Source of the DNA: Lachnospiraceae bacterium
GTDB taxonomy: Bacteria; Bacillota; Clostridia; Lachnospirales; Lachnospiraceae
Direction of reading: 5' to 3'
NCBI GenBank assembly: GCA_017553505.1
Contig: JAFZLD010000022.1
Span: forward strand, 124,001 to 188,000
DNA: 64,000 nt
The position numbers were made by a program, and so were the translations under genes. Shown here piece after piece: positions 58,180 to 60,640 of this stretch. Positions within the stretch are counted from its first letter, which is position 1. Each line of letters starts with the position of its first letter. The notes under the pieces were generated by a model. That model did no database searches and was not told the DNA's origin. It worked only from the letters and a program-made list of their open reading frames with translations.

Positions 58180-58422
58180 TTATCTCTGTCTTCCAAATAC
58201 CTCTTCGTGAGAAAGCCTTACCTCGGTGGATTCCGCAGCACTGTCTGCGATGTCCATGATGTATTCTTCGCGCTTAGCCAGTTTGGAATATAATTCAAGA
58301 CTTAAAACGACCATTGAGCCGTATCCGTTTTTGGTCAAAAAAACAGGATCGCCACCCTGGACGCATTTTTCGATATCGGTAAATTTGTTTCTTAAATCAG
58401 AAACAGGTCTAATCTGCATCAT
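58180..58422 (-). CDS. Phd/YefM-type antitoxin without visible toxin
   Basis: An 80-residue protein. It opens MMQIRPVSDLRNKFTDIEK and has GGDPVFLTKNGYGSMVVLSL, the DNA-binding fold of Phd/YefM antitoxins, then a charged C-terminal part ending EVFGRQR that would bind a toxin. The start is the ATG at 58422, with AAAGGAG seven to eight bases upstream; the upstream ATG at 58437 overlaps that ribosome site. No RelE/Doc/YoeB-like gene lies on either side, and the next element downstream is a terminator, so it is an orphan. Repeats in its promoter suggest it regulates itself. Confidence 0.82.
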   Translation of the reverse strand: MMQIRPVSDLRNKFTDIEKCVQGGDPVFLTKNGYGSMVVLSLELYSKLAKREEYIMDIADSAAESTEVRLSHEEVFGRQR

Positions 58423-58443
58423 GATAACTCCTTTCATAATACT

Positions 58444-58479: not shown

Positions 58480-58540
58480 AATTCGAAATCAAGAACTAGA
58501 TTTGAGTTGCTAAAAAGGAAAAAGAAAAAACTGCATAATA

Positions 58541-58569
58541 AAAGGCTGAAACTGTTCGATTCAGCCTTT
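58541..58569 (-). terminator. Rho-independent terminator after the serpin gene
   Basis: AAAGGCTGAA (58541-58550) and TTCAGCCTTT (58560-58569) make a 10-bp stem with a 9-nt loop. On the minus strand it is followed by a T-rich tail and lies 16 nt past the serpin stop. Confidence 0.8.
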
Positions 58570-58584
58570 CTCTTATCGTGGATA

Positions 58585-60030
58585 TTACTCTACATTCTTC
58601 ACCATACCTGTGAATAACACGGACTCATCGCCGCCGGTTACGACGAACATGAAGGGGCGGTCGAGGGTGAAGTCCACTTCGTCGGTGGAAATCATGCAAC
58701 CTTCGACCATGGCGATTTCGGTGTAGGCTGCGCCGGTGACGCCTTCTTCGTCGACTTCGACGAGGGCTGCGTGGTTGGCCTTGTTAACGAAGAGGTCGGT
58801 GCCTGTGGTGGTAACGGGGCTGAAGTCGGCAAGTTCGGGGTCGAGGGCGTCGGTTACGCCGAGGGCCGCAAGTACGGGGAGAAGATCGGTCTTCTGTGAT
58901 ACTTTGAACTTGGGAAGGCTGATGTTAACCGTAGGCATGCCTGCCGAAGCGTATTCGGAATCGCGGGTAATCGTCAGGACATCGGGGTCGGAGGCGAGAG
59001 CGTTAACGTCTACGCCGTCCTTGGGCAGGTAGAAGTACATGGTACCGCTGCCGAAGAGGTCGAGGCCGATGGCGGTGAACTTCTCGGTTTCGTAGAAGTT
59101 CATGACACCGCTTTGATGCATCATGGTGGCGGTGGTGTCGCCCTCGGTGCCGTGGAAGGTTTCCTCAGTGTTCTGAGACTCGTAGAACTTATCCTCCCAG
59201 GTAGCCTTGAAGTAAATCGTAGACACAAGCTCGAGCACGGTTGAAGGGTCGAGAGACATATCCTTCGTGAACTCGGTGAGGAGGTTGCCGGTGTTGGCGT
59301 TGGTCCAGTCGCGGAGCGCCTTGTCCATGTCTTCCGAACCGGGGGTGCCGACAAAAGAAGACGCGTAGTAATTCTCGGCAAGACTCTTAAGGGTAGCTTC
59401 ATTGAAACTGTATTCTTTGTTAAGCCATACAGAGTTCGCAAGAAGGCTCTTTAAGTAGGGTGCGTTAACGTAGTTGCTCTCCCAGATGCTCTTGACATCG
59501 CGGCGAAGCTCGGTAAGGTCCTTGGCACCGAGTAAGTCGAGAATCTGCTGACGGGTGTTGCCGTCGGATAATTCGGCTAGCATGGTAAGAGCGATGTATG
59601 TGTTAAGGGGCGAGCATACGGTGTTCTCGTCATCGCCCGTAAGAAGCTGTCCGGAGATGGCGGAGTAGTAGGAAGCCATCTTGCCGGGGTAGCCCATGGT
59701 GGTATCGTAGCGGTCACGAAGAGCAATGATGGAATCCCAGTACTCGTCGGTCTCCGCGAATTCCTCGGATGTCATGCCGCCGCCGATGGGAGCGGGGTAG
59801 GAAGCGAGGACGGTCTTCATGGAGCTTGGATATTTAATTCCGAAGGGGTCTTCGGTGTTCTTGTTAAATAAAGGTGTTACGGCTATAGCGACTATGGCAA
59901 CTGCGGCAACGGCCACGAGGGCTCCGAAGCGCTGGAACTTGCTAAATTTGCTATGCTTATATTCGCGGGCGTTCTTAACGTTCTTTTCGTCAATGTCGCC
60001 CAGGGTTTCAAAGAGTTCTTCTTTGTTCAT
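58585..60030 (-). CDS. Membrane-anchored serpin with anti-sigma-like cytoplasmic N-terminus
   Basis: A 481-residue protein. Residues 1-34 are cytoplasmic (MNKEELFETLGDIDEKNVKN, then a basic KHSKFSKFQR), 35-55 form one membrane helix, and from about 110 an extracytoplasmic serpin domain follows: CSPLNTYIALTMLAELS, LLANSVWLNKEY, LVSTIYFKATWEDKF, and NKANHAALVEVDEEGVTGAA at the hinge. Residues 428-444 are the reactive-loop hinge (EEG-V-T-G-A-A), with small residues compatible with inhibition; P1 is near Gly444/Cys445. The end DRPFMFVV is the serpin signature. It overlaps the sigma factor gene by 4 nt (ATGA). The short N-terminus resembles those of anti-sigma proteins encoded behind ECF factors in Clostridia; its role as anti-sigma is inferred. 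Confidence 0.88.
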   Translation of the reverse strand: MNKEELFETLGDIDEKNVKNAREYKHSKFSKFQRFGALVAVAAVAIVAIAVTPLFNKNTEDPFGIKYPSSMKTVLASYPAPIGGGMTSEEFAETDEYWDSIIALRDRYDTTMGYPGKMASYYSAISGQLLTGDDENTVCSPLNTYIALTMLAELSDGNTRQQILDLLGAKDLTELRRDVKSIWESNYVNAPYLKSLLANSVWLNKEYSFNEATLKSLAENYYASSFVGTPGSEDMDKALRDWTNANTGNLLTEFTKDMSLDPSTVLELVSTIYFKATWEDKFYESQNTEETFHGTEGDTTATMMHQSGVMNFYETEKFTAIGLDLFGSGTMYFYLPKDGVDVNALASDPDVLTITRDSEYASAGMPTVNISLPKFKVSQKTDLLPVLAALGVTDALDPELADFSPVTTTGTDLFVNKANHAALVEVDEEGVTGAAYTEIAMVEGCMISTDEVDFTLDRPFMFVVTGGDESVLFTGMVKNVE

Positions 60031-60587
60031 AATTGATAACCTCTTTCTGTAAGATAAAATTTCAACTTTTTACGCGTACGGTTTAAGGCTACGGAAACTG
60101 CATTCTCCTGCATCTGATAGCGCTTGGCGATGTCCGAAATGCTGTCTGCGTACCAGTAGCGGAGGATAAACATGTAGCGTTTATCTTCGGACAGCGAATT
60201 CAGGAAGTCGTTGATATCCTTCTTAAGTTCCTCGGCGTCGTAGGCGTCCGCGGGGTCACTGCCGCCGGAGACAAGCTCCGCAAGCTCATCGAGCACAAGG
60301 TCGATGTTGGCTCCGCCACGCTTCTCGCGATGGTTCCTCTTATAGAGGTCAAAGGATAAGTTGCGCGTTATTTTACCCAGGAAGGCCGAGAGGAGTGAGG
60401 GTCTGTGAGGGGGCATGGCGTTCCAAGCGTGGAGCCATGTGTCATTGACACATTCCTCGGCATCCGAGTGATTGGTGAGTATATTGTAGGCAATAGTATT
60501 GCAGTAAGCTCCGTATTTGTCCGATGATTCGGTTATGGCCTGCTCCTCGCGGGCCCAGTACAAATCAATGATGGATTCATCGGTCAT
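60027..60587 (-). CDS. ECF-type RNA polymerase sigma factor
   Basis: A 186-residue sigma-70 family protein with region 2 (YCNTIAYNILTNHSDAEECV, NDTWLHAWNAMPPHRP, LSAFLGKITRNLSFDLYKR) and region 4 (LSEDKRYMFILRYWYADSIS, DIAKRYQMQENAVSVALNRT), linked by an acidic stretch (residues about 95-125). AGGAGG lies nine bases before the ATG at 60587. It is co-transcribed with the serpin gene; the stop and the serpin start share ATGA. A 16-bp inverted repeat flanks most of the gene. Which promoters it reads is unknown. Confidence 0.9.
   Translation of the reverse strand: MTDESIIDLYWAREEQAITESSDKYGAYCNTIAYNILTNHSDAEECVNDTWLHAWNAMPPHRPSLLSAFLGKITRNLSFDLYKRNHREKRGGANIDLVLDELAELVSGGSDPADAYDAEELKKDINDFLNSLSEDKRYMFILRYWYADSISDIAKRYQMQENAVSVALNRTRKKLKFYLTERGYQL
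60048..60063. repeat. Left copy of a 16-bp inverted repeat, inside the end of the sigma gene
   Basis: TGTAAGATAAAATTTC on the + strand; its exact reverse complement is at 60625-60640. This copy is within the last codons of the sigma gene and next to the serpin ribosome site. Confidence 0.85.
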
Positions 60588-60624
60588 AGGGGTGCACCTC
60601 CTTTCACCTATATACACGACAGAA

Positions 60625-60640
60625 GAAATTTTATCTTACA
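60625..60640. repeat. Right copy of the 16-bp inverted repeat, in the sigma gene leader
   Basis: GAAATTTTATCTTACA on the + strand, the reverse complement of 60048-60063. It lies in the 5' leader of the sigma/serpin transcript, between the candidate promoter and the ribosome binding site. Confidence 0.85.

Follow-up and report, generated by a model that had tools for sequence, protein, structure and literature searches.

The window, i.e., the whole stretch of 64,000 nucleotides analysed here from contig JAFZLD010000022.1 of a Lachnospiraceae bacterium, contains two overlapping genes that probably (at a probability of about 0.6) constitute a self-activating operon, encoding an extracytoplasmic function (ECF) sigma factor and a single-pass anti-sigma factor in the membrane that uses a serpin as its sensor. 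It is very likely that the 481-residue serpin protein is an anti-sigma factor with a serpin ectodomain, a type found in gut and rumen bacteria. This role, put forward by the first-pass annotation, is strongly supported at the sequence level because a short N-terminal module is associated with related sigma genes, module and sigma switch together repeatedly among serpins, the module shows replicated covariation with sigma2 and sigma4, and the operon carries a promoter of autoregulatory type. Given an anti-sigma role, protease attack on the serpin is slightly favoured as the trigger, which fits the conserved hinge and variable bait of its reactive-centre loop. The genes and their parts are as follows.

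60027..60587, minus strand: ECF sigma factor gene, 186 amino acids (ATG at 60587-60585, TGA stop at 60029-60027)
58585..60030, minus strand: gene of the predicted anti-sigma factor with serpin ectodomain, 481 amino acids (ATG at 60030-60028)
59929..60030, minus strand: predicted cytoplasmic sigma-binding module, residues 1-34 (match to a serpin-free profile and covariation with sigma)
59860..59925, minus strand: membrane helix, about residues 36-57 (hydropathy peak 2.7)
58594..59634, minus strand: serpin domain, residues 133-479 (Pfam PF00079)
58669..58749, minus strand: reactive-centre loop, residues 428-454, with the hinge EEGVTGAAYT and then the bait EIAMVEGCMISTDEVDF

Reading frames and Pfam agree with the first-pass description of an ECF sigma gene overlapping a serpin gene. 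The sigma stop and the start of the serpin protein share the bases ATGA; the sigma factor matches sigma70 region 2 (2.7e-08) and region 4_2 (4e-07), both above the cut-offs, and the serpin match (6.9e-68, 230 bits, cut-off 27) covers positions 19-369 of the 370 in the profile. The N-terminus of 34 residues, the single membrane helix, the complete serpin and its inhibitory-type hinge, all given in the same description, are borne out by hydropathy, Pfam and the hinge sequence (residues 428-437). The helix, placed by simple hydropathy with no topology program, lies over the one strong hydrophobic stretch of the protein, residues about 37-55, between the N-terminal module and the ectodomain. By sequence, the nearest solved structures to the serpin are conserpins. 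The N-terminus matches the module profile, built from 61 anti-sigma candidates none of which is a serpin (checked), with 23.9 bits and an i-E of 1.8e-07, and the closest relatives (L221 and L222, from a sheep-rumen Lachnospiraceae metagenome-assembled genome and Lachnospiraceae bacterium YSD2013; 79 and 77% identical) retain all three of sigma, module and serpin; the arrangement is therefore not a matter of chance.

The first-pass annotation had proposed a search of other genomes for operons in which a sigma gene precedes an N-terminus and membrane helix with a variable ectodomain, and these prove to be common. A frame matching the module profile (i-E under 0.05) lies close behind 112 of 124 distinct related sigma frames, from loci drawn partly by serpin and partly by sigma, with a 4-base overlap in 70 of the 112. 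In hold-out loci, which came from subsequent searches of the order and class, the module is present behind 81 of the 91 sigmas whose downstream DNA could be read. The module reads roughly M-K/N-x-E-x-L-x-x-A-I-x-x-I-D-x-x-x-I-x-E-A, followed by basic residues and then the membrane helix. Past the helix the ectodomains are diverse and many are unrelated: the 103 complete module proteins yield 33 Pfam matches, most proteins having none, namely serpin (15), DUF4179 (5), DUF3298 (2), Big_14 (2) and single matches to DUF4349, RsgI_M, DUF6273, PepSY, two LRR models, DUF5643, PdaC and YukC. The serpin share is inflated because some of these loci were fetched through serpins; among 93 loci drawn by sigma alone (order and class), seven contain a serpin frame, sometimes not adjoining the sigma gene. 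The diversity suggests a large anti-sigma family with interchangeable sensor ectodomains on a shared module. An open frame of 524 codons in L181, considered as a natural sigma-anti-sigma fusion, was rejected, as it looks like a broken or misassembled frame.

Among serpins, module and sigma go together. Survey 1 comprised 103 distinct full-length serpin frames (frames under 370 amino acids were excluded here, as in the broader-sigma scan, the tree and the pair test below), of which 16, the window protein included, bear the module. Sigma lies directly upstream in 14 of the 16, and earlier in the operon in L048. The 87 module-free serpins include 73 with no such sigma in the piece read, six with one further upstream, seven unreadable cases and a single serpin directly behind sigma, which is the first of the two serpins in L048; among readable loci, sigma is thus directly upstream in 14/16 with the module vs 1/80 without. 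A broader sigma profile finds a sigma-like frame upstream of 30 of the 103 serpins. Survey 2, which overlaps survey 1 in some genomes (e.g., L058 and L238), comprised the 79 top-ranking loci among 471 relatives sorted by similarity to the full protein, and is therefore rich in the module. Here sigma adjoins all 49 readable module-bearing serpins (one more, L251, stands at a contig end), with the ATGA overlap in 42 of the 49. Among the 29 module-free serpins, 24 have no sigma, one has it further off, three are unreadable and one (L286, whose module falls just under the threshold) adjoins it, i.e., 1/26 readable cases. Of 48 readable loci in this survey, only 3 possess a third frame on the same strand within 60 nt, so that sigma and serpin usually make up the whole unit. 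Additional serpins come as later genes behind sigma in some genomes. In L038 (G039:C153:23100-27500), a helix-turn-helix protein with a sigma4-like C-terminus, as judged by eye, stands in place of sigma before a module-bearing serpin. L094 (G089:C51:1-8000) contains five tandem serpin genes with lipoprotein-like signals.

Sigma-free homologous serpins with a plain signal anchor had been named in the first-pass annotation as evidence that would tell against the proposal. Such homologs do occur, yet they are without the module, and a loose lipobox pattern is present in 63 of the 87 module-free survey-1 serpins vs 7 of the 16 with it. Because they lack the module, these serpins turn into support for the anti-sigma role: the module comes and goes with sigma. 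A tree of the serpin domain only (122 rows, the survey-2 loci less the short frames plus a chosen part of the survey-1 serpins) requires 26 changes of the joint sigma/module label, nine of them forced by well-supported branches; in this count rows that could not be read take their label from the module only, and five serpins on other N-termini are counted as sigma. In a pair test both groups were left out and module and sigma were scored apart (111 rows bear both traits; labels of survey-1 rows were transferred by hand from that survey). Of nine well-supported independent pairs that differ in module, about 8.3 show the same difference in sigma (median p 0.008, range 0.004-0.07). The reconstructed tree shows repeated switching of module and sigma together. 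In L231 (3900-4200), a serpin with a degenerate module and no sigma lies behind recA and recX (by eye) and has an ECF-like promoter; its close relative L223 has both sigma and module, and L231 looks like decay of the arrangement. Serpins on other membrane N-termini are found directly behind other ECF-type sigmas in L007, L043, L069 and L083, and for this reason the same kind of fusion seems to have been reached by evolution more than once.

Contacts between module and sigma are indicated by residue covariation. Set 1 consists of those 113 sigma-module pairs, out of 142, whose alignment was good enough (51 come from serpin loci); in this set the mean of the five strongest module-sigma covariations is 0.206, against at most 0.148 in 40 reshufflings restricted to near relatives. 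The hold-out consists of 59 well-aligned pairs out of the 81 module-bearing sigmas of the later searches. The top pair of set 1, F7-A147 (window numbering, module residue first), ranks 1 of 5084 in the hold-out, and N17-N130, F7-F79 and E4-K83 rank 2, 6 and 16; in 1000 near-relative reshufflings, values as high occur 0, 1, 0 and 1 times for the four pairs, respectively. The hold-out is not fully separate because 4 of its 59 sigmas are at least 80% identical to a set-1 sigma; the ranks are 1, 2, 10 and 23 after removal of those four pairs and 1, 2, 9 and 28 among the 50 pairs below 70% sigma identity to set 1. E4-K83 mostly combines an acidic residue (E or D) with a basic one (R or K), including charge-swapped cases (K-E 4 and R-D 2 in set 1; K-D 3 and R-D 2 in the hold-out), with E-E as an exception (4 and 3, respectively). 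At F7-A147 there is a partial exchange of size, F pairing with A or V, L with L or M, and A or C with F; S-S (8 in set 1) is among the combinations that do not follow it. By eye, F79 and K83 are located in sigma2.4 and N130 and A147 in sigma4, and the predicted contact of the module of some 34 residues with both sigma2 and sigma4 is supported. A mirror-tree correlation (rho 0.34, with no value above 0.10 among 200 permutations) was not used as evidence, since common descent produces such a correlation as well and since it falls to 0.10 for distant sigmas.

Promoter sequence points to self-activation. Motif fitting over 107 of the 124 upstream regions (the rest are without a clear start or enough upstream DNA) yields TGTAACa-N-(c/t)GTaTATA with a spacer of about 15-16. 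The motif reaches at least 11 bits in 38 of the 107 regions vs 0.6 expected from shuffles, being fitted and counted on the same regions, and the window promoter scores 17.6 bits. The prediction that the operon is self-activated through an ECF-type promoter is thereby supported at the sequence level. The remaining features of the operon are listed below.

60611..60640, minus strand: ECF-type promoter TGTAAGA-N15-CGTGTATA, its -10 end 23 nt upstream of the sigma start
60597..60602, minus strand: ribosome-binding site AGGAGG of the sigma gene (by eye)
58540..58569, minus strand: possible terminator with a GGCTGAA stem and T-rich tail, which would close the two-gene operon (by eye; a terminator scan did not call it)

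Nearby, a small frame at 58180-58437 (minus strand) is Phd/YefM antitoxin-like, by eye only.

The reactive-centre loop was compared among serpin pairs with a core identity of 0.50-0.97. Identity over 647 pairs of module-bearing serpins is 89% in the hinge, 57% in the core and 38% in the bait, with the loop falling below the core in 573 of them; module-free pairs are similar (92, 55 and 39%; loop below core in 144 of 176). By this comparison, sigma-linked serpins have not relaxed the hinge/bait pattern, and a conserved hinge with a variable bait could be the mark of a protease trap whose targets change. The inhibitory-serpin hinge motif is given as ExGTEAAAA (PMC8233489). The small-residue P15-P8 segment of the window serpin, GVTGAAYT, is close to it but differs by its Val (P14), Gly (P12) and Tyr (P9).

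In the proposed mechanism, the module would hold sigma inside the cell through its contacts with sigma2 and sigma4 and so inhibit it, while outside the cell the serpin, if active, would present its bait loop to a protease. Upon cutting of the loop, the serpin would snap once and irreversibly. This change, or the loss of intact serpin, might expose the stalk to site-1 (signal peptidase-like) and site-2 (M50) cleavage, which would free sigma by a relay such as that of RsiV. The freed sigma would transcribe its own operon and the spent serpin would be replaced, the inhibitor being both sensor and product. Whether the system acts as a single-use detector, in which each protease-cut serpin is spent and frees one sigma, which makes new serpin, the cell counting hits and replacing losses, is put forward tentatively, at just under even odds.

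Related systems share parts of this scheme. The closest known is RsiV from Bacillus subtilis, whose partner is sigma-V (ECF30); it senses lysozyme, and binding leads to site-1 and then site-2 cleavage (PMC6066255, PMC4598750); site 1 of RsiV and RsiP is cut by signal peptidase (PMC6066255, PMC8844934). Like the window protein, RsiV is a single-pass ECF anti-sigma factor, with an ectodomain that binds an outside protein; whereas RsiV binds lysozyme, the serpin that forms the window ectodomain would be expected to attach covalently to a protease in a single-use reaction. The window protein has no Pfam match to DUF3298 or DUF4179 at E up to 1 and does not belong to the RsiV family. RsiV-type domains do occur on a window-type module in L171 (1331-2200; DUF3298 above, DUF4179 and PdaC below the Pfam cut-offs), a protein that is perhaps a lysozyme sensor. 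RsgI from Clostridium thermocellum (PMC12203970) resembles the window protein in its cytoplasmic domain, one helix and interchangeable sensor ectodomains on paralogues, and 1 of the 103 module proteins matches RsgI_M. It differs in having SigI as partner, while the window sigma matches ECF models, and in its self-cleaving domain. No RsgI model matches the window protein in Pfam, and neither the window sigma nor the window protein belongs with SigI/RsgI.

Class I anti-sigma domains and CnrY both contact sigma2 and sigma4 (PMC7406223). CnrY from Cupriavidus metallidurans is a short class II domain whose two helices embrace both regions of CnrH (PMC7406223, PMC4598750), as covariation suggests for the window module; in the CnrY system, sensing falls to a protein of its own, CnrX. 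A class I anti-sigma domain comprises 50 residues or more (PMC7406223), against 34 ahead of the helix in the window protein, which matches no Pfam anti-sigma model. Siropins from a gut bacterium and other serpins (PMC5127057, PMC8233489) are bacterial serpins too. They differ in being reported as inhibitors, and the passages searched in those papers contain no link to a sigma factor.

Several observations weigh against the proposed operon and its protease trigger. In the window genome, exact and near promoter sites number 2 vs 3 and 7 vs 10 for the reversed pattern, and because they do not exceed this control, no regulon beyond the operon itself is claimed. Inhibitory activity of the serpin is not certain, since the textbook hinge has neither Val at P14 nor Tyr at P9. 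The bait loop, ranking 33rd lowest of 348 windows in identity, is variable without being the most variable stretch. Only 5 of the 12 strongest set-1 pairs (F7-A147, F7-F79, E4-K83, F7-I95, and N17-N130) have 0/40 reshufflings as high in the hold-out; three have 1 to 3/40 and four have 9 or more, and N17-D124, second strongest in set 1, is not replicated (561/1000 reshufflings as high). The existence of sigma-free serpins indicates that the serpin does not need sigma. The window genome encodes one M50 site-2 protease and two signal peptidases, which says little because these enzymes are near-universal and nearly all control genomes have them.

It is possible, although unlikely, that the anti-sigma factor is real and the serpin is its cargo or effector, the module or stalk sensing another signal (membrane stress, export) and sigma making more serpin. 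Serpins can be mere output because module-free ones are located downstream in sigma operons (the six survey-1 serpins further down from such sigma stand behind another protein or serpin) or carry an ECF-like promoter: at 11 bits, one precedes 5 of 39 module-free clade serpins, L231 included, vs 0.7 in shuffles (one of these 39 rows, from L080, bears the module and falls outside the five, and the two surveys have some rows in common); the figure for other serpins is 5 of 74 vs 1.5. However, the module also carries the DUF3298 type of the lysozyme sensor RsiV, and a sensor can therefore occupy the place of the ectodomain; moreover, the predicted anti-sigma protein is the only serpin in the window genome (3.13 Mb, 28 contigs). 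Less probable still is a guard role, in which intact serpin traps the site-1 protease until outside proteases deplete the serpin, leaving the stalk unguarded and sigma freed. The serpin would sit on the very stalk that the protease must cut, and no conformational signal through the helix would be needed. Against this, site 1 of RsiV and RsiP is cut by signal peptidase, an enzyme not known to be trapped by any serpin. A plain signal anchor on a gene that is a mere neighbour of sigma, which same-clade serpins without sigma might suggest, is highly improbable and was rejected on the grounds of co-switching (sigma-free serpins are without the module) and of module-sigma covariation at specific residues in two pair sets.

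Among the open-access papers listed by literature searches, none couples a serpin with an anti-sigma factor in its title or abstract start; in the passages of PMC3990059 the two are mentioned apart, not joined. No description of the module family was found there either, although the main ECF classification work may contain one. The functions of prokaryotic serpins are described as relatively enigmatic (PMC8233489). If the proposed operon works as outlined, a serpin wired to sigma would give one group of bacterial serpins a defined role, i.e., protease sensing by an irreversible reaction, and the finding exposes what appears to be a large anti-sigma family with interchangeable sensors and candidate residue contacts.
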